64,000 bases of DNA from Lucinisca nassula. Taxonomy: Eukaryota; Mollusca; Bivalvia; Lucinida; Lucinidae. The notes below the pieces were generated by a model. That model did no database searches, was not told the DNA's origin, and saw only the letters and a program-made list of their open reading frames with translations. Where the stretch lies: positions 69,097,659 through 69,161,658 of the forward strand of contig OY757010.1 of the NCBI GenBank assembly GCA_963580285.1, given 5' to 3'. The position numbers were made by a program, and so were the translations under genes. Shown one piece after another: positions 6,680 through 63,795 of this stretch. The first letter of the stretch is position 1. Every line of letters starts with the position of its first letter.

Positions 6680-7835
6680 AAAGTCTGGCGCCAAATGGCA
6701 AACAGTGCAAGCCCAGTTCAGACGCAGAAATACTAGACGTCTGATCAGGGGCTACATTGCTTCCAAAAGCTTCAGACATTTTCATTATGTTTTAGAAAAC
6801 AACACAACCTCACTCTATTAATTTTTGAACTTGTCTTGTGCTATTTACAAGGTGGAAGATTCCATTTGGCGCCAAATGGCAAAAAGGGCAAACCCAGATT
6901 AAACGCAACAGAATTAGCGTCTGATCAGGAACTACACTGTTTGCAAAAAGTTCAGGCATTTTTATTTCCAAATTTATTAAATTTTGAAGAAAATGGAAAA
7001 AATGGTAATAGTAAAAATGCCCCAGGTCAGGCGCAGCAGAAGTAGGCGTCTGATCAGGGCCTAGATTATAGAAGATTACGAAATGTTCAGTTATTTCCCA
7101 AATAAATTTAAAAAAAAATGTATGTTAGGTGGAAAATTCCATTTGGTAAAGCAAATGTGTTAATGAACACAAAATAAATGAAAATTACAGCAATAAGTAA
7201 TTAAAGAAATGAGCTGCTTCTGTGAGTGACGGAACATCAATTATTTCGGAAATTTTAAAGAAAAGACAACCTCACACTCTTATATTTCGAAATGGTTTTG
7301 TGCTTTTTACAAAGTGGAAGATGCCATTTGGCGCCAATTAGCAATCTGTGCAGACCAAGATCATACGCAACAGAAATAGGCACCTGATCTGGGCCTACAT
7401 TGTTTAAAAAAAAAGCTTCAGATATTTTCAAAATAAATTTTGAAGAAAACACACCCTCACACTCTTAAATTTTGAAACGACTTGTGCTTATTACAAGGTG
7501 AAAGTTGACACCAAATGGCAAAATAAAGTGCAGATCCAGATCAGACCTAGCAGAAGTAGATGTCTGATCAGGTCCTACTTGGTTTGCCAAAATAAACAAA
7601 GAAAACAAAACTTCATACTCTTTAATTTTGAAATGGACTTGCTCTATAAAAAAGGTGGAAGATTCCATTTGTTGCCAAATGGCAAAAACCATGCAGACCC
7701 AGATCAGACGCAGCAGACGTTGGCCTCTAATCAGGGCATACATTTTATGCAAAAGGTTCAGGCGTTTCCTAATAAATATCGAAGAAAACGCAACTTGATT
7801 CTCCGAGTTAATTAAACAAAATAAATGAAAATTAC
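6680..7835 (-). repeat. run of PAL-1-like units in tandem
   Basis: At least five degenerate units, each with a TTTGGCGCCAAATGGCAAA-like boundary and a CAGATCAGACGCAG core, beginning near 6690, 6868, 7330, 7510 and 7672. The spacing is irregular (about 165-180 bp, with a longer gap at 7050-7320). Likely tandem amplification of one MITE. The short open frames here are by-products. Confidence 0.65.
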
Positions 7836-8024
7836 AAAAATAATTAATTGAAAATTGGGCCGCTTCTGTGAGTCAAAGAACATTGATTATTTCGGACATC
7901 TAAATAAATGACGATAATAAGATGTTGTTTTAAATAGCTATCTTTATAGCCCCCCAGTTGCACCTGGGTGTCATAAAACTTTTGGTCAATAAACATTCTG
8001 CATTTTGACAGTCAACTTCAAACA

Positions 8025-8520
8025 CGACTCAGTACCTGTATTTTACCCTTTACCCCCAGGCAAATGTAAATGGATAATTGACTAGTCCGCCAGATTTGTT
8101 TTGTTTAAACTGAAAAAAAAATCTGGAATAAGGAAAATTTGAAGAAATAGCAAAAAGAAACAAAAAAGAAGGATAAGTGTAAAATAGTTACGCGGTACTG
8201 ATTGGTTGCTTTTGAAACGCGAAGCAGTCTGTGAATGTGCACTATCTGCGTTTTCGACACTCATGTTTGATTGGCTGGTCAACAATCGCGATTTACACGC
8301 AATATCGCGTTATTCATAAAAGCAATTGATTGGCTAAAATGTCATTCGCAAGTGAAACGCGTGAATCACGAGTGCGAATCTCGCGCGTTACAAATGCGAA
8401 ACAAATGCGTGTGCGCTGTAAAGTTCTTCTCAATCTTATCTGTATATGTTTACTGTAAAGTCAAATAAATACAGTTTAAACCAAAAGATATTTGAACTTT
8501 CGGCCTGGCGGCCTCATGTT
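8025..8520. other. unassigned; CpG-rich part with CCAAT boxes
   Basis: At 8190-8420 there are three ATTGGCT/ATTGGTT inverted CCAAT motifs and many CGCG words, reminiscent of the 5.8-6.0 kb segment. No convincing exon. Confidence 0.25.
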
Positions 8521-17074: not shown

Positions 17075-17600
17075 AAGGAAGGTGACTGGTCCAGTATTAT
17101 GAGCCAGAGAATAAAACTCAAAGTCGCTAGTGGGTAGGGCCGGGTTCTCCGAGGCCAAAGAAGTTCAAAACGCAGCCCTCTGCTGGCAAGGTGATGACGA
17201 CTGTATTTTGGGACGCACAAGGCATTATTATGTTGGACTTTGTAGCAAAGAAAAGTACAATGACAGTTGCGAATTATGCAAATTTGCTCGACCAACTTAG
17301 AACTGCGATCCGTGAAAAACTCCGAGGTAAACTTTCCTGCGCCTACAGGACAATGCAAGAGTTCACACTTGCAAAATTGAAATGGATTTGCAAAATTGCA
17401 ATGGAAGCTGTTGAGCTGAATGGGTACGAGCTAATACCGCACCCCGCCTGTTCTACGTATATAGCTCCTAGTGACTATTTCCTATTGCCAAACTGGATTA
17501 AAAGGATATCTGTGGATGTCATTTGTGCTCCAACGAAGAAGTCGTGGCGGCAGTTGGGTGCGAGACAAGGACCCTGGCTTCTTCAGTTCTGGGCTGATGG
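17075..17600 (+). pseudogene. mariner-type transposase relic
   Basis: Recognisable in shifting + frames: YYEPENKTQS followed by a TAG stop, then GPGSPRPKKFKTQPSAGK and MTTVFWDAQGIIMLDF, a stretch typical of mariner transposases. Next comes LQDNARVHT (with the second catalytic Asp), which is in a different frame from its surroundings, and then HPACSTYIAPSDYFLLPN, matching the usual HPPYSPDLAPSDYFLF block with the third catalytic Asp. At least two frameshifts and one stop are present, and the N-terminal DNA-binding part was not found. A truncated SINE-1 abuts at 16961. No terminal inverted repeats were found. Confidence 0.85.
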
Positions 17601-17936
17601 AACTGGAACAGAGTTGGTCCAAGTGTATCATTCTAGAGGGCAATGAAGTGATCGATATCACCCAGAAATAAGTTAAGCTGTGTTTTTTACTGACTCACCC
17701 TCGTAGTTGTTCCAGTGCATGGTCAAATTCTATAAAACTTAGAATAACTCTTCAAGAAGATTCGCCCATTTGTGAGAGAGGAGCACAAAAGTGAACTATG
17801 TCCACCGTTAGGAATTGGCATTTTATATATTGACTGATGCTACAAATTTCTGCATAGTTACATGTATCAAAAGCACACTGTTGCACGTCTTGCAGATTAA
17901 CCAATGTCTGATTGGAAAATAACATCCACATTTTGG

Positions 17937-20960: not shown

Positions 20961-22740
20961 TACAATACAAGATACAAGATACAAGATACAAGAAACTTTA
21001 TTTTACGTCGGTTATATACAACAGATAACATTAGCTGTAATAGCTATTTTCCGACAGAACAAGTAATAAAAATCAACAAGGGTAAAACAACAGTTATAAA
21101 GCAGCTGTAAAAGGAAAGTAATGCACATTAAGAATTTATTATGTTATATTACACTTAAATTGAAAAATTAAAATTGAGGTAAAAATTAAGACATGCATCA
21201 GCTCCATGAGCACAACTAAGCCCTATAGTAAAACACTTAAATATGAAATAAGAGTTAAAAAAAAAACCAAAAAACTTCTTTTCTTTAAATATAACACAGA
21301 TTACTTTATAGAATCACAGATATGCACAATTGTTATATTTATCACATAATCTTTAAGTGATTTATAATGAGGAGTCAAAAGTCTCTGCAGGGGTAAGACT
21401 CTTGCTGTCATTCATAGATTAAGCCCGTCTCTGGACAGTTACCCTCTACCCGAAAGACGAAAGAAAGGACAAACAGTGGCAACCCACAATGCTGGCTCTT
21501 TAAACCATCAAAGTGTCCCGCCCCTATAGCCCCACGAAAATGGCAGAAGGTCCCCAAATGAGAAAAGGCACTTTTTTGTTTTAGTTTGATAGGTTATAAA
21601 CAGTTTTATGACCTTGACAGTAGTTTTATAAAACATGCACTATAAACTTCAACTAATAAACTAAACTAGAAACAAAACTAAAATAAACTAAAAAGATCAA
21701 ACAAGAAGAGTTAAAATAATCACAGAAAAATTCAAAGAAACTAGTCATTAGACTAACCTTACGAACCACGGCATATGGCACAGCCACACCCCGGACCAGT
21801 CCAGGTGCGGACCAGCCGCTCGAACTCCTTGTACTCAGACACCTTTCTCAGTTCATTCGGGAGGCTGTTCCACACCCTTGAGGCCTCGAACCGGAAAGAT
21901 CGCTGCCCATATGTCGCCGTTCTAACAGTGGGTACCTGCAGTGTATTTTCGTACCTGAAAGAGTAATTAGAGTGTTTGATCATAACCAGGTCTCTAATAT
22001 ATACCGGGGCAATGTTATGTATACATTTAAAAGTTTCAAGAGCTATAAGTCTCAGTCTCCCAAGATGTAAAGTGGGGAGATTTACCCGGTTTAGAAGCTC
22101 CGAGTAAGGTGTATCATACTCGTTAAAAACAATTTTCAGTCCTCTGTGCTGTAATTTCTCTAGTTTTTTCAGTATTTGTTTTGCTGCAGAAATGCCAGAC
22201 AATCGGACAGTAACTAAAATTGGACCTAATAAAAGATTTAAAAACTAGCAGTCTGGTTTCAACTGAGAGGAATTTGCTAATCCTCTGGAGGACGTTTAGT
22301 TGTCGTGCTACCTTCTGACAAATCCTGGAAACTTGTTCATTAAAATTTAGCTGATAGTCCAGTTCAATGCCCAAGAGCTTCACTACCTCCTCACACGGAA
22401 TGGTGTTACCGGCGACAGTGAAGCTCTCAATCTCAGAGTGTGTCTTTTTGCCAACAGCCAGGGCTTGGAACTTTCCAGGATTTGCCTGCATTTGGTTATC
22501 ATGGAACCATTCTATGCAGACTAGACTTTCACCTTCAAGTACATTTGTAAGGGTTTCTAGTTTTTTGTCTGCATGTGATAACGTGTTGTCATCAGCATAA
22601 TTATACATGGATCCTTTGGTTATGAAATAAAAAATGTCATTCAGGAAAATATTAAAGACCAGCGGGCCCATAATAGATCCCTGAGGGACTCCCTTAATAA
22701 TTTGTAGCCAGCTACTGATATGGTTCCCTACTTTCACTCT
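20961..22740 (-). mobile_element. 5'-truncated LINE with ATCTTGT-type tail, inserted in PAL-2
   Basis: On the minus strand it holds reverse transcriptase remains (22737-21759), about 800 bp of 3' sequence and a tail of three ACAAGAT units (as read on +, 20967-20990). Left and right of it lie the two halves of a PAL-2 palindromic element (20819-20960 and 22741-22860), so it inserted into a pre-existing PAL-2 copy close to its centre. The 5' end is truncated in the palm domain. Confidence 0.8.
21759..22737 (-). pseudogene. LINE reverse transcriptase fragment with one frameshift
   Basis: Two overlapping frames make up one product. The first (22737-22123) has GVPQGSIMGPLVFNIFLND (residues 16-34) and NYADD (46-50, catalytic), followed by thumb residues up to SYCPIVWHFCSKT. 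The second (22202-21759) carries the C-terminal part with LEKLQHRGLKIVFNEYDTPY and VWNSLPNELR. They are joined if one base is removed from the T6 run at about 22164-22169, so a single-base slip is the likely break. The first codon is GTG and the N-terminal part is missing. Confidence 0.9.
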
Positions 22741-30669: not shown

Positions 30670-30845
30670 ATATAAATACATAGTAACCTTTATCGCCGAA
30701 AAAAAATGAAAATTTTAAGATAAAAAAATTGGGATATTGTTCTTATTTCTGCTCAAAATAGAGATGTAGCGGTTCTAACGAGTACCCACAATCGATATTT
30801 TAGAGCAGAAAGAAGAAAAAATAAGGTATACCACTGTAAGCCCCA
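30670..30845 (+). mobile_element. PAL-2 element with deleted hairpin centre, abutting the 97-bp satellite
   Basis: Shows CTTATTTCTGCTCAAAATAG, then only one arm of the palindrome, GCGGTTCTAACGAGTACCC, then TTTTAGAGCAGAAAG. The satellite begins directly at its right edge. Confidence 0.7.
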
Positions 30846-31272
30846 TCTTGGCACATTTATCATCTACAAGTAATGTGCTGGGCTCCTCTGGTGGATACTC
30901 GCACAGTGTTCTTCTGGTGAGTGCGGGGCCTACTCTGGAACATCTTGGCACTTTTATCATCTACCAGTAATATGCTGGGCTCCTCTGGTGGATACTCGCA
31001 CAGTATTCTTCTGGTGAGTGCGGGGCCTACTCTGGAACATCTGGGCATATTTATCATCTACCAGTAATGTGCTGGGCTCCTCTGGTGGATACTCGCACAG
31101 TATTCTTCTGGTGAGTGCGGGGCCTACTCTGGAACATCTTGGCACTTTTATCATCTACCAGTAATGTGCTGGGCTCCTCTGGTGGATACTCGCACAGTGT
31201 TCTTCTGGTGAGTGCGGGGCCTACTTTGGAACGTCTTGGCATATTTATCATCTACCAGTAATGTGCTGGGCT
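30845..31272 (+). repeat. 97-bp satellite, left block (about 4.4 units)
   Basis: Monomers of 97 bp containing CATCTTGGCAC, ATCATCTACCAGTAATRTGC, CTCCTCTGGTGGATACTCGC and GAGTGCGGGGCCTACTC. Since 97 is one more than a multiple of three, the ~65-codon minus-strand frames that recur every unit cross two monomers in different frames. They are by-products of the repeat, not genes. The block ends in mid-monomer at CTGGGCT, and the monomer resumes at 37697. Confidence 0.95.
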
Positions 31273-31453
31273 TGAGTATACGTGAGTATTCTGAGAAATC
31301 GGAAATAAATTATTGGTTTAGACTCATATTCTAGACAGGTTTTTAATTATTTGGACCCCATTTTGATTTATCTCAGTCTTTGAATCGACAGCCTATTCGA
31401 AATTCGCAAAATTGCAGTATGTTTCCTCTGGCTTTCTTTGCCGGATTATTACA

Positions 31454-31499
31454 GGGTCACTGATGAGGCTTTATTAGCCGAAACTACGTAGTATGACCC
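31454..31499 (+). ncRNA. hammerhead ribozyme, array copy 1
   Basis: Seen directly: stem I 5' strand GGGTCA (31454-31459), catalytic core CTGATGA (31460-31466), stem II GGC/GCC closing a 7-nt loop TTTATTA (31467-31479), core GAAA (31480-31483), stem III CTAC/GTAG with no loop (31484-31491), then T-A, then stem I 3' strand TGACCC (31494-31499). Pairing is complete: GGGTCA with TGACCC, GGC with GCC, CTAC with GTAG, and A15.1 with U16.1. The predicted cut is after the GUA triplet, between 31493 and 31494. All invariant hammerhead core residues are present. A 4-bp palindromic stem III without a loop is known from satellite and Penelope-associated hammerheads, which often cleave best as dimers. Activity is inferred and not shown. 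Confidence 0.93.
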
Positions 31500-31836
31500 A
31501 TCTTCTTTCTTATGAATGTTTTCGTTGCTCTTAAAGGAACTCCTTTTTTGATTTTTATTCGCCTTCACTGCAGCTGGTGTTGTGCCGTGTGGCGGCCGTA
31601 AAACGTCTCCCCGTACATCAACCATAGTGCAGTTTATATTTTACTTTTGGTCCTTTGAGATCGGCGTGAGTATTCTGAGAAATCGGAAATAAATTATTGG
31701 TTTAGACTCATATTCTAGACAGGTTTTAATTGTTTGGACCCCATTTTGATTTATCTCAGTCTTTGAATCGACAGCCTATTCGAAATTCGCAAAATTGCAG
31801 TATGTTTCCTCTGGCTTTCTTTGCCGGATTATTACA

Positions 31837-31882
31837 GGGTCACTGATGAGGCTTTATTAGCCGAAACTACGTAGTATGACCC
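31837..31882 (+). ncRNA. hammerhead ribozyme, array copy 2
   Basis: Same 46-base motif as copy 1, with both core segments and all three stems intact. Predicted cut between 31876 and 31877. It lies in a type b unit. Confidence 0.92.
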
Positions 31883-32220
31883 ATCTTCTTTCTTATGAAT
31901 GTTTTCGTTGCTCTTAAAGGAACTCCTTTTTTGATTTTTATTCGCCTTCACTGCAGCTGGTGTTGTGCCGTGTGGCGGCCGTAAAACGTCTCCCCGTACA
32001 TCAACCATGGTGCAGTTTATATTTTACTTTTGGTCCTTTGAGATCGGCGTGAGTATTCTGAGAAATCGGAAATAAATTATTGGTTTAGACTCATATTCTA
32101 GACAGGTTTTTAATTATTTGGACCCCATTTTGATTTATCTCAGTCTTTGAATCGACAGCCTATTCGAAATTCGCAAAATTGCAGTATGTTTCCTCTGGCT
32201 TTCTTTGCCGGATTATTACA

Positions 32221-32266
32221 GGGTCACTGATGAGGCTTTATTAGCCGAAACTACGTAGTATGACCC
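32221..32266 (+). ncRNA. hammerhead ribozyme, array copy 3
   Basis: Identical motif in a type a unit. Predicted cut between 32260 and 32261. Confidence 0.92.
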
Positions 32267-32604
32267 ATCTTCTTTCTTATGAATGTTTTCGTTGCTCTTA
32301 AAGGAACTCCTTTTTTGATTTTTATTCGCCTTCACTGCAGCTGGTGTTGTGCCGTGTGGCGGCCGTAAAACGTCTCCCCGTACATCAACCATAGTGCAGT
32401 TTATATTTTACTTTTGGTCCTTTGAGATCGGCGTGAGTATTCTGAGAAATCGGAAATAAATTATTGGTTTAGAATCATATTCTAGACAGGTTTTTAATTA
32501 TTTGGACCCCATTTTGATTTATCTCAGTCTTTGAATCGACAGCCTATTCGAAATTCGCAAAATTGCAGTATGTTTCCTCTGGCTTTCTTTGCCGGATTAT
32601 TACA

Positions 32605-32650
32605 GGGTCACTGATGAGGCTTTATTAGCCGAAACTACGTAGTATGACCC
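32605..32650 (+). ncRNA. hammerhead ribozyme, array copy 4
   Basis: Identical motif. Its unit has a private C-to-A change near its start (TAGAATCATA). Predicted cut between 32644 and 32645. Confidence 0.92.
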
Positions 32651-32987
32651 ATCTTCTTTCTTATGAATGTTTTCGTTGCTCTTAAAGGAACTCCTTTTTT
32701 GATTTTTATTCGCCTTCACTGCAGCTGGTGTTGTGCCGTGTGGCGGCCGTAAAACGTCTCCCCGTACATCAACCATAGTGCAGTTTATATTTTACTTTTG
32801 GTCCTTTGAGATCGGCGTGAGTATTCTGAGAAATCGGAAATAAATTATTGGTTTAGACTCATATTCTAGACAGGTTTTAATTGTTTGGACCCCATTTTGA
32901 TTTATCTCAGTCTTTGAATCGACAGCCTATTCGAAATTCGCAAAATTGCAGTATGTTTCCTCTGGCTTTCTTTGCCGGATTATTACA

Positions 32988-33033
32988 GGGTCACTGATGA
33001 GGCTTTATTAGCCGAAACTACGTAGTATGACCC
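32988..33033 (+). ncRNA. hammerhead ribozyme, array copy 5
   Basis: Identical motif in a type b unit that opens the first complete higher-order repeat. Predicted cut between 33027 and 33028. Confidence 0.92.
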
Positions 33034-33371
33034 ATCTTCTTTCTTATGAATGTTTTCGTTGCTCTTAAAGGAACTCCTTTTTTGATTTTTATTCGCCTTC
33101 ACTGCAGCTGGTGTTGTGCCGTGTGGCGGCCGTAAAACGTCTCCCCGTACATCAACCATGGTGCAGTTTATATTTTACTTTTGGTCCTTTGAGATCGGCG
33201 TGAGTATTCTGAGAAATCGGAAATAAATTATTGGTTTAGACTCATATTCTAGACAGGTTTTTAATTATTTGGACTCCATTTTGATTTATCGCAGTCTTTG
33301 AATCGACAGCCTATTCGAAATTCGCAAAATTGCAGTATGTTTCCTCTGGCTTTCTTTGCCGGATTATTACA

Positions 33372-33417
33372 GGGTCACTGATGAGGCTTTATTAGCCGAA
33401 ACTACGTAGTATGACCC
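33372..33417 (+). ncRNA. hammerhead ribozyme, array copy 6
   Basis: Identical motif in a type c unit (GGACTCC and TATCGCAG variants upstream). Predicted cut between 33411 and 33412. Confidence 0.92.
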
Positions 33418-33754
33418 ATCTTCTTTCTTATGAATGTTTTCGTTGCTCTTAAAGGAACTCCTTTTTGATTTTTATTCGCCTTCACTGCAGCTGGTGTTGT
33501 GCCGTGTGGCGGCCGTAAAACGTCTCCCCGTACATCAACCATAGTGCAGTTTATATTTTACTTTTGGTCCTTTGAGATCGGCGTGAGTATTCTGAGAAAT
33601 CGGAAATAAATTATTGGTTTAGACTCATATTCTAGACAGGTTTTTAATTATTTGGACCCCATTTTGATTTATCTCAGTCTTTGAATCGACAGCCTATTCG
33701 AAATTCGCAAAATTGCAGTATGTTTCCTCTGGCTTTCTTTGCCGGATTATTACA

Positions 33755-33800
33755 GGGTCACTGATGAGGCTTTATTAGCCGAAACTACGTAGTATGACCC
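33755..33800 (+). ncRNA. hammerhead ribozyme, array copy 7
   Basis: Identical motif in a type a unit. Predicted cut between 33794 and 33795. Confidence 0.92.
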
Positions 33801-34138
33801 ATCTTCTTTCTTATGAATGTTTTCGTTGCTCTTAAAGGAACTCCTTTTTTGATTTTTATTCGCCTTCACTGCAGCTGGTGTTGTGCCGTGTGGCGGCCGT
33901 AAAACGTCTCCCCGTACATCAACCATAGTGCAGTTTATATTTTACTTTTGGTCCTTTGAGATCGGCGTGAGTATTCTGAGAAATCGGAAATAAATTATTG
34001 GTTTAGACTCATATTCTAGACAGGTTTTTAATTATTTGGACCCCATTTTGATTTATCTCAGTCTTTGAATCGACAGCCTATTCGAAATTCGCAAAATTGC
34101 AGTATGTTTCCTCTGGCTTTCTTTGCCGGATTATTACA

Positions 34139-34184
34139 GGGTCACTGATGAGGCTTTATTAGCCGAAACTACGTAGTATGACCC
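34139..34184 (+). ncRNA. hammerhead ribozyme, array copy 8
   Basis: Identical motif in a type a unit. Predicted cut between 34178 and 34179. Confidence 0.92.
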
Positions 34185-34521
34185 ATCTTCTTTCTTATGA
34201 ATGTTTTCGTTGCTCTTAAAGGAACTCCTTTTTTGATTTTTATTCGCCTTCACTGCAGCTGGTGTTGTGCCGTGTGGCGGCCGTAAAACGTCTCCCCGTA
34301 CATCAACCATAGTGCAGTTTATATTTTACTTTTGGTCCTTTGAGATCGGCGTGAGTATTCTGAGAAATCGGAAATAAATTATTGGTTTAGACTCATATTC
34401 TAGACAGGTTTTAATTGTTTGGACCCCATTTTGATTTATCTCAGTCTTTGAATCGACAGCCTATTCGAAATTCGCAAAATTGCAGTATGTTTCCTCTGGC
34501 CTTCTTTGCCGGATTATTACA

Positions 34522-34567
34522 GGGTCACTGATGAGGCTTTATTAGCCGAAACTACGTAGTATGACCC
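34522..34567 (+). ncRNA. hammerhead ribozyme, array copy 9
   Basis: Identical motif in a type b unit that also has GGCCTTC upstream and a private CACTGTAGC downstream. Predicted cut between 34561 and 34562. Confidence 0.92.
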
Positions 34568-34905
34568 ATCTTCTTTCTTATGAATGTTTTCGTTGCTCTT
34601 AAAGGAACTCCTTTTTTGATTTTTATTCGCCTTCACTGTAGCTGGTGTTGTGCCGTGTGGCGGCCGTAAAACGTCTCCCCGTACATCAACCATGGTGCAG
34701 TTTATATTTTACTTTTGGTCCTTTGAGATCGGCGTGAGTATTCTGAGAAATCGGAAATAAATTATTGGTTTAGACTCATATTCTAGACAGGTTTTTAATT
34801 ATTTGGACTCCATTTTGATTTATCGCAGTCTTTGAATCGACAGCCTATTCGAAATTCGCAAAATTGCAGTATGTTTCCTCTGGCTTTCTTTGCCGGATTA
34901 TTACA

Positions 34906-34951
34906 GGGTCACTGATGAGGCTTTATTAGCCGAAACTACGTAGTATGACCC
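34906..34951 (+). ncRNA. hammerhead ribozyme, array copy 10
   Basis: Identical motif in a type c unit. Predicted cut between 34945 and 34946. Confidence 0.92.
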
Positions 34952-35288
34952 ATCTTCTTTCTTATGAATGTTTTCGTTGCTCTTAAAGGAACTCCTTTTT
35001 GATTTTTATTCGCCTTCACTGCAGCTGGTGTTGTGCCGTGTGGCGGCCGTAAAACGTCTCCCCGTACATCAACCATAGTGCAGTTTATATTTTACTTTTG
35101 GTCCTTTGAGATCGGCGTGAGTATTCTGAGAAATCGGAAATAAATTATTGGTTTAGACTCATATTCTAGACAGGTTTTTAATTATTTGGACCCCATTTTG
35201 ATTTATCTCAGTCTTTGAATCGACAGCCTATTCGAAATTCGCAAAATTGCAGTATGTTTCCTCTGGCTTTCTTTGCCGGATTATTACA

Positions 35289-35334
35289 GGGTCACTGATG
35301 AGGCTTTATTAGCCGAAACTACGTAGTATGACCC
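35289..35334 (+). ncRNA. hammerhead ribozyme, array copy 11
   Basis: Identical motif in a type a unit. Predicted cut between 35328 and 35329. Confidence 0.92.
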
Positions 35335-35672
35335 ATCTTCTTTCTTATGAATGTTTTCGTTGCTCTTAAAGGAACTCCTTTTTTGATTTTTATTCGCCTT
35401 CACTGCAGCTGGTGTTGTGCCGTGTGGCGGCCGTAAAACGTCTCCCCGTACATCAACCATAGTGCAGTTTATATTTTACTTTTGGTCCTTTGAGATCGGC
35501 GTGAGTATTCTGAGAAATCGGAAATAAATTATTGGTTTAGACTCATATTCTAGACAGGTTTTTAATTATTTGGACCCCATTTTGATTTATCTCAGTCTTT
35601 GAATCGACAGCCTATTCGAAATTCGCAAAATTGCAGTATGTTTCCTCTGGCTTTCTTTGCCGGATTATTACA

Positions 35673-35718
35673 GGGTCACTGATGAGGCTTTATTAACCGA
35701 AACTACGTAGTATGACCC
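35673..35718 (+). ncRNA. hammerhead ribozyme, array copy 12, stem II variant
   Basis: The only copy with a change inside the motif. The 3' strand of stem II reads ACC instead of GCC, so the loop-closing pair of a 3-bp stem is lost. The catalytic core, stem I and stem III are unchanged. Predicted cut between 35712 and 35713, probably with reduced activity (inference). Confidence 0.88.
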
Positions 35719-36055
35719 ATCTTCTTTCTTATGAATGTTTTCGTTGCTCTTAAAGGAACTCCTTTTTTGATTTTTATTCGCCTTCACTGCAGCTGGTGTT
35801 GTGCCGTGTGGCGGCCGTAAAACGTCTCCCCGTACATCAACCATAGTGCAGTTTATATTTTACTTTTGGTCCTTTGAGATCGGCGTGAGTATTCTGAGAA
35901 ATCGGAAATAAATTATTGGTTTAGACTCATATTCTAGACAGGTTTTAATTGTTTGGACCCCATTTTGATTTATCTCAGTCTTTGAATCGACAGCCTATTC
36001 GAAATTCGCAAAATTGCAGTATGTTTCCTCTGGCCTTCTTTGCCGGATTATTACA

Positions 36056-36101
36056 GGGTCACTGATGAGGCTTTATTAGCCGAAACTACGTAGTATGACC
36101 C
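36056..36101 (+). ncRNA. hammerhead ribozyme, array copy 13
   Basis: Identical motif in a type b unit with GGCCTTC upstream. Predicted cut between 36095 and 36096. Confidence 0.92.
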
Positions 36102-36439
36102 ATCTTCTTTCTTATGAATGTTTTCGTTGCTCTTAAAGGAACTCCTTTTTTGATTTTTATTCGCCTTCACTGCAGCTGGTGTTGTGCCGTGTGGCGGCCG
36201 TAAAACGTCTCCCCGTACATCAACCATGGTGCAGTTTATATTTTACTTTTGGTCCTTTGAGATCGGCGTGAGTATTCTGAGAAATCGGAAATAAATTATT
36301 GGTTTAGACTCATATTCTAGACAGGTTTTTAATTATTTGGACTCCATTTTGATTTATCGCAGTCTTTGAATCGACAGCCTATTCGAAATTCGCAAAATTG
36401 CAGTATGTTTCCTCTGGCTTTCTTTGCCGGATTATTACA

Positions 36440-36485
36440 GGGTCACTGATGAGGCTTTATTAGCCGAAACTACGTAGTATGACCC
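36440..36485 (+). ncRNA. hammerhead ribozyme, array copy 14
   Basis: Identical motif in a type c unit. Predicted cut between 36479 and 36480. Confidence 0.92.
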
Positions 36486-36822
36486 ATCTTCTTTCTTATG
36501 AATGTTTTCGTTGCTCTTAAAGGAACTCCTTTTTGATTTTTATTCGCCTTCACTGCAGCTGGTGTTGTGCCGTGTGGCGGCCGTAAAACGTCTCCCCGTA
36601 CATCAACCATAGTGCAGTTTATATTTTACTTTTGGTCCTTTGAGATCGGCGTGAGTATTCTGAGAAATCGGAAATAAATTATTGGTTTAGACTCATATTC
36701 TAGACAGGTTTTTAATTATTTGGACCCCATTTTGATTTATCTCAGTCTTTGAATCGACAGCCTATTCGAAATTCGCAAAATTGCAGTATGTTTCCTCTGG
36801 CTTTCTTTGCCGGATTATTACA

Positions 36823-36868
36823 GGGTCACTGATGAGGCTTTATTAGCCGAAACTACGTAGTATGACCC
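36823..36868 (+). ncRNA. hammerhead ribozyme, array copy 15
   Basis: Identical motif in a type a unit. Predicted cut between 36862 and 36863. Confidence 0.92.
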
Positions 36869-37206
36869 ATCTTCTTTCTTATGAATGTTTTCGTTGCTCT
36901 TAAAGGAACTCCTTTTTTGATTTTTATTCGCCTTCACTGCAGCTGGTGTTGTGCCGTGTGGCGGCCGTAAAACGTCTCCCCGTACATCAACCATAGTGCA
37001 GTTTATATTTTACTTTTGGTCCTTTGAGATCGGCGTGAGTATTCTGAGAAATCGGAAATAAATTATTGGTTTAGACTCATATTCTAGACAGGTTTTTAAT
37101 TATTTGGACCCCATTTTGATTTATCTCAGTCTTTGAATCGACAGCCTATTCGAAATTCGCAAAATTGCAGTATGTTTCCTCTGGCTTTCTTTGCCGGATT
37201 ATTACA

Positions 37207-37252
37207 GGGTCACTGATGAGGCTTTATTAGCCGAAACTACGTAGTATGACCC
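37207..37252 (+). ncRNA. hammerhead ribozyme, array copy 16
   Basis: Identical motif in a type a unit. Predicted cut between 37246 and 37247. Confidence 0.92.
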
Positions 37253-37590
37253 ATCTTCTTTCTTATGAATGTTTTCGTTGCTCTTAAAGGAACTCCTTTT
37301 TTGATTTTTATTCGCCTTCACTGCAGCTGGTGTTGTGCCGTGTGGCGGCCGTAAAACGTCTCCCCGTACATCAACCATAGTGCAGTTTATATTTTACTTT
37401 TGGTCCTTTGAGATCGGCGTGAGTATTCTGAGAAATCGGAAATAAATTATTGGTTTAGACTCATATTCTAGACAGGTTTTTAATTATTTGGACCCCATTT
37501 TGATTTATCTCAGTCTTTGAATCGACAGCCTATTCGAAATTCGCAAAATTGCAGTATGTTTCCTCTGGCTTTCTTTGCCGGATTATTACA

Positions 37591-37636
37591 GGGTCACTGA
37601 TGAGGCTTTATTAGCCGAAACTACGTAGTATGACCC
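37591..37636 (+). ncRNA. hammerhead ribozyme, array copy 17
   Basis: Identical motif in the final partial unit, which breaks off 60 bp further on where the 97-bp satellite resumes. Predicted cut between 37630 and 37631. Confidence 0.92.
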
Positions 37637-37696
37637 ATCTTCTTTCTTATGAATGTTTTCGTTGCTCTTAAAGGAACTCCTTTTTTGATTTTTATT

Positions 37697-40545
37697 CCTC
37701 TGGTGGATACTCGCACAGTATTCTTCTGGTGAGTGCGGGGCCTACTCTGGAACATCTTGGCATATTTATCATCTACCAGTAATGTGCTGGGCTCCTCTGG
37801 TGGATACTCGCACAGTATTCTTCTGGTGAGTGCGGGGCCTACTCTGGAACATCTTGGCAATTTTTATCATCTACAAGTAATATGCTGGGCTCCTCTGGTG
37901 GATACTCGCACAGTGTTCTTCCGATGAGTACGGGACCTACTCTGGAACATCTTGGCATATTTATCACCTACCAGTAATGTGCTGGGCTCCTCTGGTGGGT
38001 ACTCGCACAGTGTTCTTCCGATGAGTGCGGGGCCTACTCTGGAACATCTTGGCACATTTATCATCTACCAGTAATATGCTGGGCTCCCTCTGGTGGATAC
38101 TCGCACAGTGTTCTTCCGATGAGTACGGGACCTACTCTGGAACATCTTGGCATATTTATCACCTACCAGTAATATGCTGGGCTCCTCTGGTGGATACTCG
38201 CACAGTGTTCTTCCGATGAGTGCGGGGCCTGCTCTGGAGCATCTTGGCATATTTATCACCTACCAGTAATGTGTTGGGCTCCTCTGGTGGATACTCGCAC
38301 AGTATTCTTCTGGTGAGTGCGGGGCCTACTCTGGAACATCTTGGCACTTTTATCATCTACCAGTAATATGATGGGCTCCTCTGGTGGATACTCGCACAGT
38401 ATTCTTCCGATGAGTGCGGGGCCTACTCTGGAACATCTTTGCACATTTATCATCTACCAGCAATGTGCTGGGCTACTCTGGTGGATACTCGCACAGTATT
38501 CTTCTGGTGAGTGCGGGGTTCTACTCTGGAACATCTTGGCACTTTTATCATCTACCAGTAATATGCTGGGCTCCTCTGGTGGATACTCGCACAGTGTTTT
38601 TCCGATGAGTACGGGACCTACTCTGGAAAATCTTGGCATATTTATCACCTACCAGTAATGTGCTGGGCTCCTCTGGTGGATACTCGCCTAGTGTTCTTCC
38701 GATGAGTGCGGGGCCTACTCTGGAACATCTTGGCACATTTATCATCTACCAGTAATATGCTGGGCTCCCTCTGGTGGATACTCGCACAGTGTTCTTCCGA
38801 TGAGTACGGGACCTACTCTGGAACATCTTGGCATATTTATCACCTACCAGTAATGTACTGGGCTCCTCTGGTGGATACTCGCACAGTGTTCTTCCGATGA
38901 GTGCGGGACCTACTCTGGAACATCTTGGCATATTTATCACCTACCAGTAATGTGCTGGGCTCCTCTGGTGGATACTCGCACAGTATTCTTCTGGTGAGTG
39001 CGGGGCCTACTCTGGAACATCTTGGCACTTTTATCATCTACCAGTAATATGCTGGGCTCCTCTGGTGGATACTCGCACAGTATTCTTCCGATGAGTGCGG
39101 GGCCTACTCTGGAACATCTTGGCACATTTATCATCTACCAGTAATATGCTGGGCTCCTCTGGTGGATACTCGCACAGTGTTCTTCTGGTGAGTGCGGGGC
39201 CGACTCTGGGACATCTTGGCACATTTATCATCTACCAGTAATGTGCTGGGCTCCTCTGGTGGATACTCGCACAGTGTTCTTCTGCTGAGTGCGGGGCCTA
39301 CTCTGGAACATATTGGCACTTTTATCATCTACCAGCAATGTGCTGGGCTCCTCTGGTGGATACTCGCACAGTGTTCTTCTGGTGAGTGCGGGGCCTACTC
39401 TGGAACATCTTGGCACATTTATCATCTACCAGTAATGTGCTGGGCTCCTCTGGCGGATACTCGCACAGTGTTCTTCCGATGAGTACGGGGCCTACTCTGG
39501 AACATCTTGGCACATTTATCATCTACACGTAATGTGCTGGGCTCCTCTGGTGGATACTCGCACAGTGTTCTTCTGGTGAGTGCGGGGCCTACTCTGGAAC
39601 ATCTTGGCACTTTTATCATATACCAGTAATATGCTGGGCTCCTCTGGTTGATACTCGCACAGTATTCTTCTGGTGAGTGCGGGGCCTACTCTGGAACATC
39701 TTGGCACTTTTATCATCTACCAGTAATATGCTGGGCTCCTCTGGTGGATACTCGCACAGTATTCTTCTGGTGAGTGCGGGGCCTACTCTGGAACATCTTA
39801 GCACATTTATCATCTACAAGTAATGTGCTGGGCTCCTCTGGTGGATACTCGCACAGTGTTCTTCTGGTGAGTGCGGGGCCTACTTTGGAACATCTTGGCA
39901 TATTTATCATCTACCAGTAATGTGCTGCGCTCCTCTGGTGGATACTCGCACAGTGTTCTTCTGGTGAGTGCGGGGCCTACTCTGGAACATCTTGGCACAT
40001 TTATCATCTACCAGTAATGTGCTGGGCTCCTCTGGTGGATACTCGCACAGTGTTCTTCTGGTGAGTACGGGGCCTACTGTGGAACATATTGGCACTTTTA
40101 TCATCTACCAGTAATATGCTGGGCTCCTCTGGTGGATACTCGCACAGTGTTCTTCTGGTGAGTGCGGGGCCTACTCTGGAACATATTGGCACATTTATCA
40201 TCTACCAGTAATGTGCTGGGCTCCTTTGGTGGATACTCGCACAGTGTTCTTCTGGTGAGTACGGGACCTACTCTGTAACATCTTGGCACTTTTATCATCT
40301 ACCAGTAATATGCTGGGCTCCTCTGGTGGATACTCGCATAGTGTTCTTCCGATGAGTGCGGGGCCTACTCTGGAACATCTTGGCACATTTTTTATATACC
40401 AGCTACCATGTTCACAGTTTCGTCTGCGTGTTCTGCATCTACCAGCAATGTGCTGGGCTCCTCTGGTGGATACTCGCACAGTGTTCTTCTGGTGAGTGCA
40501 GGGCCTACTCTGGAACATCTTGGCACTTATTCATATACAAGGTTC
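37697..40545 (+). repeat. 97-bp satellite, right block (about 29 units)
   Basis: Same 97-bp monomer as at 30.85 kb. Two variants alternate, CTTCTGGTGAG and CTTCCGATGAG. A stretch of seven monomers is duplicated with a 681-bp offset, sharing the rare CTCCCTCTGG insertion at about 38082 and 38763. Near the right end a ~52-bp foreign segment (about 40388-40440) interrupts a monomer. The last recognisable monomer fades out at about 40545. Confidence 0.95.
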
Positions 40546-43404: not shown

Positions 43405-45097
43405 TCTCAATCTTACACTGTACGGGCTTTGAACTCATCTGCAGTCTTAGCATTCACCACAGAAGAGGGAAGACTATTCCATAGTCCTAGGAAAAAAAGG
43501 AATTTTTCAGGGCATCACTGTAGGACTGGTACCTATGATACTGCGAGTTGTTTACTTTTGATGCCCTTGTTCGGGTTGAAACTGTCACAGGGGTCAAGTA
43601 TTTGTCTTTATTAACGGCCACTGTACCTGAGTGTATCTTATAGAAGAAGGTTAAAGAGGACTGCTCACGACGGGCTTCTAGGGATGGCCATTCTAGCTCG
43701 TTAAGCATGTCACCGACGCTACTTCTATTGCGCCATCGTCGGCAGGTCCATCGAGCAGCTGTCCTCTGCACCTTCTCCACCTGCTGAATCTGAGTTTTAA
43801 CATAGGGATGCCATATGGGTGATGCATATTCAAGCTAAGTGGGGAACCAATGTTTTATATATATGCAACCTCCTTTGTCTGCCTAGGTGCAAAAGCCAAG
43901 TTTCGTCTAAGAAATCCTAAAGTCCTAGTCGCTTTTGATGTTATTTCTGAAACGTGTTGACCCCAATCAAGATCATAAGTAATGGTGATACCAAGATATT
44001 TGGCGGATTGAACCTGCTCCGAGATTTGCTGGTGTAGTGTATAATTGAATGACATTTGGCCACATTGAACTTCATCTGCCAATCGGCCTCCCACTGTGCT
44101 AGTTGATTCAGGTCATCTTGTAGAATAAGACAGTCAGAAGAAGAATATATATTCCTATAAAGGACACAATCATCAGCAAACAAACGGACAGATGACCTGA
44201 TATTATCTGGGAGATCATTAATTAATACCAACCGCCCCCGCCCATAGGGGCTTGAAGAAATATATGGGCTGCATGATGCTTCCACGCAGAGCTGACTCTG
44301 GCCCGCACACTAGTACTGGTAAACCGCTTGGGGATCTAAGCCTGTCCAGGAACCGCGGTGCGAGGCGGACCGTCCATGCTAATAAACCCTATTGGTTTCA
44401 TTGGGCGACAGGGCTTGAGATGTCATTTCATCTCAATGTCGGGTAAAAGTCCCACAAAATTGGAAGCGACGTCTCCAAAATGACCTTTACAGTGTTGACG
44501 GGGACGTTAGACCTCAAATCAAACAAACAAACAAACAAATAATTAATACCAAGAAAAGGACCGGTCCAAGGACCGAACCTTGGGGGACACCAGATAAAAC
44601 AGGGACTGGATCAGACGCTTGGCCATCAAGTACAACTTGTTGTGAGCGCCCTGAAAGCCATGAGCTAATCCACCTATGTGTGGATCCTCTTATCCCATAG
44701 TAATCCAATTTATACGATAGCCTTCTGTGAGGTACCTTGTCAAAGGCCTAAGCGAAGTCCATGATAATCAAGTCAGTCTGTTTGTGGCCACGGTTTGTGG
44801 CCCCATCCAGATTGCTCACAATGTCATGGTAAAACTGAACTAACTGAGTTTCGCAAGACCTTTGACTTCGGAAACCATGCTGACAGCAAGAATGCTCTCA
44901 AAGGCTAGGTGCTTGTTGATGTTACTAACTATTATATGCTCCAGGGTTTTGCAACAGATGCATGTTAGCGACACTGGTCTATAATTTGCTGCGTCATATT
45001 TTTCTCCTTTTTTATAGACCGGGGTAACATTAGCTTGTCGCCAGTCATCTGGTACAGTGCCCTGGGCAAGTGATTCATTGAAGATAAAGGCCAGCAC
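43405..45097 (-). pseudogene. degraded jockey/CR1-like LINE reverse transcriptase, split by a SINE
   Basis: Pieces in order on the minus strand: 45097-44840 (VPDDWRQANVTPVYKKGEKY, AANYRPVSLT); a middle part with a frameshift near 44850 and a TAG replacing the Lys codon of AKAFD; 44708-44552 (GVPQGSVLGPVLFLVL); the SINE-1 insertion; 44220-43941 (LINDLPDNI, FADDCVLYR, WQMKFNVAKC); a frameshift into 44094-43855 (SAKYLGITITYDLDW); then 43780-43487 and a C-terminal WNSLPSSVV stretch to about 43405 in another frame. It cannot make a functional enzyme. The 5' part, including the endonuclease, is absent. Confidence 0.9.
44232..44539 (+). mobile_element. SINE-1 inserted in the LINE, 13-bp target duplication
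   Basis: Full-length SINE-1 with a (CAAA)n end. The target duplication TAATTAATACCAA is present at 44219-44231 and 44540-44552. Removing the SINE and one copy restores the reading frame between the GVPQGS and FADD parts of the reverse transcriptase. The SINE insertion therefore came after the LINE insertion. Confidence 0.95.
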
Positions 45098-55559: not shown

Positions 55560-57440
55560 TCACTAAATGCGTCTTATCATAAGGAACAAGAATATATATG
55601 GTTTAGCAGTGGGGATCTGTAGGGCCAATTAAGCGGTGGAGGAGTTGGGGCATGCCCTGTTGATCCCAGGAAAGCCCAAGATTGTTGTCCCTAAATGTGT
55701 GTGTGTGTGAATTCGGGTTTAACGTCGCTTTCAACAATTTTTCAGTCATATCACGACGGTGTCTGGTTGCAACAGGGAGCTCAATGCTCACGTTTATAGT
55801 GCTGCCTCACTGAAGTATCATGTCCCAGACACAGTACATGATACCACACCCAGTCACATTATCCTGACACTGGATCCCTAAATGTGTCTTATCATAAGGA
55901 CCAAGTATATATATGGTTTAGGGGTGGGAATCTGAACGGTTTCTGAGATTTGAGGCCCTTTTATGAAGTGGAAAGGATAGGAATGGCCTCTGCAGACCCC
56001 CCTACAGTAGGTGTGCAAATAATAAGGAACAAGAACATACATGATTATGGGGTGGGGATTTGAATGGTTTCTGAAATATAAAGCCTTTTATGAAGTGGAA
56101 GGGCGGGGCACATTGCCTCAGCACAAAGTGACCCACAGGTTGGTGTGATTGAACGAGTCTTATCATAAGGAACAAGTATATGGTTTAGGGGTGGGGATCT
56201 GAACTATTTCTGAAATATATTGCTTTTAATGAAGTAAAGCGATGGGGCATGGCCTGGGCATGCCCTGGGGACTCCCAAGCTGGTGTCACTGAATGCGTCT
56301 TATCATAAGGAAGATGAATATATATGTATTTAGGGTGGGGCTAAGAACAGTTTCTGAGACATAAGGCCTTTTTTGAAGTGGAAGGGGTGGGGCAAGGCCC
56401 CGGGAGACTCCCAGGTTGGTGTCAATGAATGTGTCTTATCATTAGGAACAAGAATATATATGGTTTAGGGGTAGCCATCTGTAGGGTTTCCCAGATATTG
56501 GGAGATTATGAAATGGAGGGGGTTGGGCATGGCCCCAGCACATCCCTGAGGACCCCCAGGTTGGTGTCACTGAATGCGTCTTATCATAATGAACAAGAAT
56601 ATACATGGTTTAGGGGTGAGGATCTGAACAGTTTCTGAGATATATGGCCTTTTGTGAAGTGAAGGGGTGGGGCAAGGCCCCGGCGCATCCCTGAGGACCC
56701 ACAGGTTGGTGTCAATGAATGTGTCTTATCATAAGGATCAAGAATATATATGGTTTAGGGGTGGGGATCTGTAAGGTTTCCAAGATATTGGGCCTTTTTG
56801 GAAATGGAGGGGGTTGGGCATGGCCCCGGCGCATCCCGGGGACTCCCAGGTTGATGTCACTGAATGGGTCTTATCATAAGGAACAAGAATATATATGGTT
56901 TAGGGGTGGGGATCTGAATGGTTTCCAAGATATTGGGCCTTTTATTAAGTGGAGAGGGTGGGGCATGGCCTCGGCGCATCCCTGAGGACCAACAGGCTGG
57001 TGTCACTGAATGCGTCTTATCAATAGGAACAAGAATATATATGGTTTAGGGGTGGGGATCTGTAAGGTTTCCAAGATATTGGGCCTTTTATGAAATGGAG
57101 GGGGTTGGGCATGGCCCCGGCGCATCCCGGGGACTCCCAGGTTGATGTCACTGAATGGGTTTTATCATAAGGAACAAGAATATATGTGGTTTAGGGGTGG
57201 GGATCTGAATGGTTTCCAAGATATTGGGCCTTTTATTAAGTGGAGGGGGTGGGGCATTGCCTCGGCGCATCCCTGAGGACCCACAGGCTGGTGTCACTGA
57301 ATGCGTATTATCAATAGGAACAAGAATATATATGGTTTAGGGGTGGGGATCTGAATGGTTTCTGTGATATATGGCCTTTTATGAAGTGGAGGGGGTGGGG
57401 CATGGCCCAGGCACAACCTGGGGGACCCTCAGGTTGGCAT
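55560..57440 (+). repeat. ~142-147-bp tandem array, about 12 units
   Basis: Each unit has TGCGTCTTATCATAAGGAAC, AAGAATATATATGGTTTAGG, GGTGGGGATCTG and GGGGTGGGGCATGGCC-type words; starts near 55568, 55880, 56018, 56159, 56300, 56435, 56580, 56727, 56870, 57016, 57161 and 57306. The longer first gap is due to a SINE-3 insertion. Confidence 0.88.
55701..55874 (-). mobile_element. SINE-3, 5'-truncated, 13-bp target duplication
   Basis: Only the 3' half. TCCCTAAATGTGT at 55688-55700 and 55875-55887. It interrupts the ~145-bp array inside the Helitron-like element. Confidence 0.92.
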
Positions 57441-60250: not shown

Positions 60251-60445
60251 GGCTGATCAAATTTACAAATTAAAAATCCCACTGGAAACCAATGATGAAT
60301 GTCATCATTTAACAAGGAGACAACTTTCATGACCTTTTGTTTATCTTTTTCCTTTTTTTTTTCAAATGAGGACCTCTGAAGAGGGTTCTACTCTATTTTT
60401 TGTTTGCATATGCCATTCTGCTATACAGCCCGGGCTTCTCCAGAC

Positions 60446-60474
60446 TAATTGGCCGAAACTAGCTAGTCTGGCCC
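60446..60474 (+). ncRNA. 5'-truncated hammerhead half-motif
   Basis: This holds the stem II loop and 3' strand, GAAA, stem III CTAGCTAG, TC and stem I 3' strand of the ribozyme found 262 bp downstream, but lacks the CTGATGA core. What precedes it is an 18-base match to SINE-4, so the element starts abruptly inside stem II. Confidence 0.85.
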
Positions 60475-60690
60475 AGAAAACATGTACACTTCATATTTTT
60501 CACTTCTGTGGTGTATTCCTTGCTTCCAAAGGATAACCCTTTTATAGAACATATTTAACTTGCACTACAGCTGGTGTGTGGGAATGTGTGGCGGCGGTAA
60601 AACGTCTCCCTGCCCTACATCATAGTGTAGATTATATTTTCTTGTCCTTTGGGATCATTGATTCCATTGTGGAATTTTGAAAATATCTGA

Positions 60691-60736
60691 GGGTCACTGA
60701 TGAGGCCTAATTGGCCGAAACTAGCTAGTCTGGCCC
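60691..60736 (+). ncRNA. divergent hammerhead ribozyme with GUC cleavage site
   Basis: Stem I GGGTCA (60691-60696) pairs with TGGCCC (60731-60736), including one G-U wobble. Core CTGATGA (60697-60703); stem II GGCC/GGCC, four pairs, closing a TAATT loop (60704-60716); core GAAA (60717-60720); stem III CTAG/CTAG with no loop (60721-60728); then T and C17, giving the canonical GUC cut between 60730 and 60731. Stem II and stem III differ from the array at 31-38 kb on both strands yet stay paired, which is covariation and argues for selection on the fold. Confidence 0.93.
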
Positions 60737-61054
60737 AGAAAACATGTACACTTCATATTTTTCACTTCTGTGGTGTATTCCTTGCTTCCAAAGGATAACC
60801 CTTTTATAGAACATATTTTAGTTGAGTCTTTAAACCGAGGCATTAGGAAAAACAATAAAATGATTCAAGGAAATTTAAATGGATTCAGTTCTGGTGTCAT
60901 TGAAGTTTTCAATATTGTTGACAGAAGTGACAGGACTTTAATTATTCTCGAAATGACCTGCTGTGATGACGTCATGTAACTCTTTATTTAAAAAATAATG
61001 CGAGGGAACTTACAGTCACCGAAACAGGTCAGTCACCATTTCTGGGCTTCTGAT

Positions 61055-63575: not shown

Positions 63576-63795
63576 TTTAAAATAGAATAAAACGGAAATT
63601 CCGAGGTCATGGAAGGTGACCTTTTATGGGTCGTTGTCAGATCTAGGCGTACATAGTTCGGCTTAGATCGGGTTTCAATCAGATTGATTTTGATGTGTCA
63701 AGGAAAGAAATCTGATAATACCTTACTAAATTCTACAACCGGATTAGCAAACCTTCTATCGGCAATTAACCGGTCACATTAATTATATGCTTAGC

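Follow-up and report, generated by a model that had tools for sequence, protein, structure and literature searches.

We analyzed a 64,000-nucleotide stretch of the genome of the lucinid bivalve Lucinisca nassula (contig OY757010.1, positions 69,097,659 to 69,161,658; hereafter, the window), in which 16.75 head-to-tail units of 383/384 bp, bearing predicted hammerhead ribozymes, interrupt a satellite of 97 bp (Table 1). An earlier, sequence-only reading had proposed a tandem hammerhead satellite of ~384 bp here, and this was borne out, as 17 type I cores spaced 383/384 bp apart were found, and Tandem Repeats Finder delimited the same forward-strand interval with a period of 384, 16.7 copies, and 99% matches. 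Specifically, the window contained 18 occurrences of the pattern CTGANGAG..CGAAAC, where 0.02 were expected; 17 were inside the array and one was at 60697, within a copy of a second family. The G+C content of positions 32001-36000 was 0.39, and no frame of 110 or more residues was found inside the array, which encodes no reverse transcriptase with a GIY-YIG endonuclease. We refer to the array units as family 1 and number unit positions from the predicted hammerhead cut.

The array hammerheads consist of stem I (GGGTCA/TGACCC), stem II (GGCT/AGCC), stem III (ACT/AGT around ACGT), and a GTA cleavage triplet; the triplet (GUA in the RNA) and the predicted cut at 31493/31494 and its equivalents were as previously claimed. 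The accompanying claim of a full core and three stems in every unit held for 16 of the 17, which have a perfect 4-bp stem II, and failed at 35679, where AACC replaces AGCC, a stem II pair is lost, and the isolated hairpin is gone from the fold. The covariance check that had been proposed returned no Rfam model at its gathering score in the array; the best of the weak hammerhead matches, in a 1.3-kb piece, scored 21.6 of 56.3 bits for RAGATH-1-hammerhead (E 0.84) and 20.3 of 48.5 bits for Hammerhead_3 (E 0.26). The earlier reading had listed such a shortfall among refuting results, but we do not take it so, since 17 copies stand in register with the full core and three stems. The suggestion of a loop-less 4-bp stem III that may need a dimer was not supported, since the stem can instead form as ACU[ACGU]AGU, with three pairs and a tetraloop. 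The catalytic fold of the isolated motif was 0.8 kcal/mol above the optimum, and for this reason the predicted family 1 hammerhead may well work as a monomer, with a dimer possible and not required.

Sequence variants among the array units were periodic. Units 6, 10, and 14 share the variants at unit positions 51, 133, 247, and 263, whereas the variant at position 239 marks units 2, 5, 9, and 13; the position 133 variant is also in unit 3, and a variant at 323 is in units 9 and 13 only. Because variants recur at a 4-unit period, the array likely grew after insertion through ~1.53-kb (4-unit) repeats at the DNA level, and the unit count of a long array therefore does not equal the number of laps made in copying. 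Given this pattern, we dropped the idea that the 17 units are one direct concatemeric product, a part of the earlier retrozyme reading; its other part, that monomer circles are re-copied into DNA, was supported by the anatomy of insertions elsewhere.

Table 1. Coordinates of the array, its parts, its surroundings, and the second-family copy in the window.
Feature	Position	Strand	Remarks
97-bp satellite, left part (insertion host)	30844..31272	+	tandem repeat search
Eight bases TGAGTATA between interrupted satellite and array	31273..31280	+	filler or junction scar
Retrozyme unit array, family 1	31281..37697	+	ends at unit positions 67 (3′) and 172 (5′), counted from the cut
First type I hammerhead (core CTGATGA, GAAA; stem III ACT[ACGT]AGT)	31454..31499	+	predicted cut 31493/31494
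17 hammerhead cores, starts 31460 to 37597	31460..37621	+	pattern search; core at 35679 with stem II mismatch
Predicted long helix P1, 5′ strand (unit positions 30-48)	31523..31541	+	pairs with 31649-31666
Fixed end point, putative reverse-transcription start (unit positions 66-69; 64-72 over all 68 insertions)	31559..31562	+	in the U-rich loop that separates P1 from P2
Module conserved at unit positions 72-169, including predicted hairpin P2 (74-79 with 135-140)	31565..31662	+	common to families 1, 2, and 3
97-bp satellite, right part	37696..40402	+	resumes at the interrupted base
Copy of the second retrozyme family (1.4 units of 262 bp)	60445..60818	+	one whole core (60697-60721), predicted cut 60730/60731, 3′ end position 88

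Ends, lengths, and joins of dispersed insertions

The assembly searched (2.93 Gb in 696 contigs) contained 22,634 exact copies of the 25-nt family 1 core (11,278 forward and 11,356 reverse), and the first 100 listed sites were mostly single or double cores. Our sample comprised 65 loci around these first 100 listed cores, chosen via the exact core and located in the first 13.3 Mb of C1, the contig that holds the window; L008 was dropped, being inside L009. Of 81 BLAST matches to a tandem reference, 75 were kept, leaving out two in the window and four with <88% identity (module-only matches in L004, L005, and L041, and one in L044 that ended at 71). Flanks mostly differed among the loci.

The 3′ ends of the family 1 insertions were nearly fixed, with 68 of 75 at unit positions 64-72 and 45 at position 66, while about two insertions would be expected by chance in nine of 383 positions. 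The exceptions were in L013 (86), L030 (270), L041 (55), L064 (79), L037 (356, an interrupted copy), L054 (169, a family 3 module), and L066 (cut by the locus edge). The 5′ ends were spread and slightly non-uniform (Kolmogorov-Smirnov p = 0.04), 30 of 71 being at positions 48-144, an unevenness that perhaps stems from pausing in the structured module, and none of the 71 lay within 3 nt of the predicted cut. Insertion lengths ranged from 100 to 1988 bp (0.26 to 5.2 units, n = 71) without steps at unit length, and 35 of the 71 exceeded one unit. No ends resembling long terminal repeats (LTRs) were seen in the sampled insertions.

The second family followed the same rule at another distance from its cut. 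Its hammerhead has a GTC cleavage triplet and stem III CTAGCTAG, and its exact core occurs 19,935 times genome-wide. The 3′ ends were at 87-89 in all six uncut copies (L030, L026, L005, L018, L022, which is in two pieces, and the window), and two further copies were cut by the edge of the locus. For the window copy, the end at 88 comes from comparing its two units, BLAST continuing to 94 by chance. A third tandem family (L054, 1-335 and 1225-1301; L041, 1120-1387; L004, 709-1104) carries a module shared with the other two. No hammerhead core was seen in it, nor was there an Rfam ribozyme match in the L041 and L054 stretches, and family 3 may hold a different self-cleaving RNA, or none. In L054, a family 1 copy is inserted within family 3.

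To characterize the joins, insertions were compared with paralogs of the host repeat, among the loci read, that lack the insertion; 72 were tried, of which 21, counting the window array, could be used. In these alignments, the modal net change was a loss of 1-9 bp at eight sites, none at two, a gain of 1-7 bp at ten, and +25 at one, so that 20 of the 21 sites had no duplication of >7 bp. At several sites with a loss, the element begins with 2-4 bases identical to those missing from the target, and at several with a gain, the added bases repeat the end of the element. Because lost or gained bases match element ends, the true net change is smaller, and most joins are near blunt. In a swapped-flank control on 54 insertions, true flanks resembled each other slightly more than swapped ones did, a score of ≥5 being reached in five against 1.4 expected and an alignment score of ≥16 in ten against 5.9 expected, with L031 alone clearly outside; a few insertions may thus carry short duplications. 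Where the window array breaks the 97-bp satellite, no clear duplication of any target base is seen, and an 8-base filler is present. No poly(A) or other 3′ tail was seen at the sampled junctions, and, with target-site duplications of ordinary length also lacking, the hallmarks of long and short interspersed nuclear elements (LINEs and SINEs) were not found.

Several incidental observations concern the insertion sites. By eye, three insertions of two families (L027, ~2203-2572; L030, ~7362-7716 and 7883-8233) lie at nearly one spot of one host repeat, following ..TTTTACATAG or ..ACGTAGACATA, a possible target preference. A repeated open frame also hosts or adjoins family 1 copies (L014, 2867-3646, with ..RYLDDLLNID..; L017, 3312-3971); this frame is reverse-transcriptase-like by eye and had no Pfam match. 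In the 97-bp host satellite, the stretch CTGGTGAGT..ACTCTGGAAC looks by eye like a decayed hammerhead, a likeness that is probably due to chance because the invariant bases differ.

The copied template and a shared predicted fold

Copies ran through the predicted ribozyme cut site as if it were sealed. Among 19,516 exact genome-wide matches to unit positions 1-24, the four pre-cut bases were also present in 18,244 (93.5%), and since nearly all read through, the copies have no pile-up at the cut. The comparison for this genome-wide figure came from the local sample, in which the median success of such a four-base extension was 92% across 363 positions, the value at the cut being 91% (59/65). 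Because copying that starts beside position 66 heads toward position 1, a cleaved linear monomer would yield at most ~66-72 nt.

The units within an insertion were also closely alike. At eight diagnostic sites, the terminal unit differed from the other units of the same insertion in 7 of 299 comparisons (2.3%) versus 24.6% between different insertions (standard deviation 2.8%; lowest of 500 draws 16.5%), and comparison of all pairs gave 9 mismatches in 492. These were what remained of twelve sites first picked, after omission of sites 50, 51, and 67, whose place within or adjoining a T run makes them prone to slippage and insecure alignment (12-26% mismatch within insertions), and of site 49, which is mostly gap. 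There was no diagnostic mismatch in 27 of the 33 insertions with comparable sites, showing for these 27, at the diagnostic sites, that the units of one insertion stem from one monomer. Even the older copy in L012, whose units differ at 14 of the 296 bases compared, had no difference at 10 diagnostic sites. A circular template explains jointly the intact junction, the lengths over one unit, and the single-monomer origin.

Finally, unit positions 72-169 are common to families 1, 2, and 3 and take part in a predicted two-helix structure around the end point. When the family 1 unit is folded as a circle, a long helix (P1) joins positions 30-48 to 156-173, with a pair probability near 1 at positions 30-44 (35 unpaired) and lower values beyond, and a hairpin (P2) forms at 74-140; the end point is predicted to sit in the U-rich loop between them. 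Across 16 chosen pairs in six sequences of the three families, 91.7% of cells were paired versus 33-50% when slid, and two pairs were altered on both sides (covarying), while the pair at columns 66/135 fails in four of the six sequences; with six sequences, these measures are modest. We predict that a conserved P1/P2 start structure is common to all three families.

Proposed circle-templated copying and its alternatives

Taken together, these features make it probable that the array goes back to a single insertion, extended afterwards at the DNA level, and that the inserted element is a non-LTR retrozyme that spreads as an RNA circle and is copied by a borrowed reverse transcriptase from a fixed internal point. 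Tandem units would be transcribed, and the predicted hammerheads would cut the RNA into 383/384-nt monomers, which a host ligase would close into circles, a step that has been reported for the retrozymes of mussel and axolotl (Cervera and de la Peña 2020, PMC7229834). The reverse transcriptase of an autonomous element would then dock on the predicted two-helix structure and begin copying in the U-rich loop, 64-72 nt past the sealed cut, where the insertions are seen to end. Copying would cross the sealed junction and circle for a quarter lap to five laps, in keeping with the observed lengths and phases; each insertion would therefore be the read-out of one monomer, as the enzyme runs round one circle. 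The complementary DNA would be joined nearly blunt, consistent with the 20 of 21 sites that had no duplication of >7 bp, and the window block would have grown thereafter via duplicated segments of four units, the pattern of which is visible in its variants. We are evenly divided on a broader proposition, namely circle-templated retrotransposition with a fixed start, near-blunt joining, and a docking structure shared by at least three families, one of them lacking a recognizable hammerhead and perhaps having another self-cleaving RNA.

Uncut, linear, multimeric read-through RNA could instead be the template, with the same fixed internal start and a hammerhead of minor importance for mobility. 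The junction is indeed intact in nearly all copies, and for the Penelope-like element PAc of Anolis, hammerhead mutants are reported to have left in vitro insertion unchanged, unprocessed RNA being the dominant substrate (PMC11167929). However, a linear template would shorten daughters each round, with loss of 5′ sequence, yet about half of the insertions exceed one unit, and units from a single monomer are found even in the older L012 copy; we consider this route unlikely. Quite improbable, in our assessment, is a SINE-like cycle in which linear unit-length RNA stops at a polymerase III terminator in the T-rich run near position 66 and serves a LINE as template from the 3′ end inward. Family 1 does terminate in TTTTTGATTTTTATTT, and the commoner 5′ ends at 48-144 mostly correspond to near one unit length, but the matching end of family 2 has a single TTTT ~20 nt before it, and that of family 3 in L041 has no run of four T. 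Further, such RNAs would account neither for the insertions longer than one unit and the lack of a single 5′ pile-up, nor for joins without a 3′ tail and, at all but one of the compared sites, without a duplication of >7 bp. As for an ordinary satellite spread in DNA only, by unequal exchange or DNA circles, the higher-order pattern of four units does show DNA-level growth in the window block, and the few sampled insertions with shared flanks resemble segmental duplicates. Still, no DNA process gives a reason for so many insertions to end at one unit position with the other end free, nor for the same fixed-end rule to recur in family 2, and we give this explanation very little credence.

Several results weigh against copying from hammerhead-made circles. 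Uncut multimeric RNA from a young source would fit both the intact junction and the like units, although some other means of preventing a loss of length would be needed, and the PAc substrate is, as published, uncut RNA (PMC11167929). Diagnostic mismatches were present in 6 of the 33 multi-unit insertions, and all twelve sites first picked gave 59 mismatches in 720 comparisons (8.2%) within insertions versus 29.6% between them. Family 3, in which no hammerhead was seen, ends at the matching place in two of three copies (L054 and L041, not L004). Shuffle controls for P1/P2 were mixed: of 500 shuffles, 5 attained the covariation score, 44 the count of pairs changed on both sides, and 468 the count of further pair types. 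L031 has a 25-bp duplication, the sole such site, and sampled insertions under ~100 bp were not detectable. Flanks were shared by at least two pairs of insertions, one L029 copy with one L030 copy (3′) and two copies within L030 (5′), and each pair may go back to one event; because of such sharing, independent insertion events are a few fewer than counted. The search for a partner enzyme likewise gave no direct link, as no hammerhead pattern or module similarity was found in the four GIY-YIG loci read (L067-L070), and the Penelope-associated hammerhead RF03152 had no match genome-wide, a result that says little because its control matched nowhere either.

That search, with 138 matches and 150 of 746 candidates scored, exposed long genome frames of up to 820 residues with a GIY-YIG domain, some 3.8-4.0 kb apart on one strand. 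The four loci appear Penelope-like by eye; L068 and L070 belong to a single family, and the L070 locus comprises only its frames, excluding the upstream region. No GIY-YIG frame was found in L071. A Penelope-like enzyme is our first candidate for the borrowed reverse transcriptase by analogy, because the Anolis enzyme starts internally in vitro, away from the RNA end, at a similar distance past its hammerhead. Specifically, reverse transcription by the Anolis protein is reported to start 111-118 nt into the frame with a hammerhead cut at 26, that is, 85-92 nt past the cut (Frangieh 2024, PMC11167929).

Relation to known hammerhead elements

The array fits the animal non-LTR retrozymes in features, size, and copy habit, having a predicted type I hammerhead, dispersed tandem units in the 150-450-bp class that range from partial copies and dimers to multimers, G+C below 45-50%, and no coding frame. 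As described in PMC7229834, those elements (350-390 bp in Mytilus) likewise are short, A+T-rich, frameless tandem repeats with type I hammerheads and occur as dimers to multimers in thousands of copies. The fixed insertion end and the shared structure described here were not seen in that account, and its duplications, "when present", are >4 bp, whereas 20 of our 21 sites had none over 7 bp. The newt and axolotl hammerhead satellites treated there resemble the array in their 330-350-bp units, weak helix III, and many copies (126,247 axolotl motifs) but have a different unit; our helix III, ACU/AGU around ACGU, is close to a two-pair tetraloop stem that the authors liken to invertebrate hammerheads. 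Hammerhead-made circles are also the proposed intermediates of plant LTR retrozymes, which, according to PMC7761336, have type III hammerheads within LTRs, 4-bp duplications, a primer site, and a polypurine tract; no LTR was seen here.

With respect to carriers, LINEs or Penelope-like elements were proposed in PMC7229834, and, according to PMC7761336, retrozyme repeats show no motif that would point to the autonomous element they use. The fixed internal start past the hammerhead, as judged from the insertion ends of families 1 and 2, recalls Penelope-like mobilization. Anolis PAc/Poseidon shares a hammerhead, tandem or partial copies, and an internal start past the hammerhead, and PAc needs RNA downstream of its start (PMC11167929), where our elements have the conserved module; the putative start here lies 64-72 nt past the cut in family 1 and 87-89 nt past it in family 2, versus 85-92 nt in PAc. 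Unlike PAc, family 1 has no protein, and the likeness in start geometry is one of resemblance by analogy, not of membership.

Other features of the window were recorded. Frames matching RVT_1 in Pfam are located on the reverse strand at 61687-63576 (629 residues), 22123-22740, and 43941-44309 (below the Pfam cut-off) and are taken for LINE relics, and a partial DDE transposase frame (Transposase_1, Pfam) is at 17131-17646 on the forward strand. A 145/291-bp repeat at 56022-57437 has, by eye, look-alike text in the distant L071 (~900-1150). A tRNA-Thr prediction at 1379-1453 on the reverse strand scored 29.7 against a threshold of 29 bits and is possibly a decayed copy.

A literature search, with subscription papers outside it, found no earlier report of a fixed retrozyme end among the titles and abstract openings listed. 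The kind of element is itself known, and what is new here is how its copies sit, with a fixed 3′ end and a predicted conserved start structure. How animal retrozymes return to DNA, and which enzyme they use, was left open by their discoverers in PMC7229834 and PMC7761336. A fixed end, a sealed junction, one monomer per insertion, and a putative start structure turn this into concrete questions, namely which enzyme is used and whether a circle is needed, and would give a rule for reading genomes that separates circle-copied insertions from ordinary satellites and SINEs.

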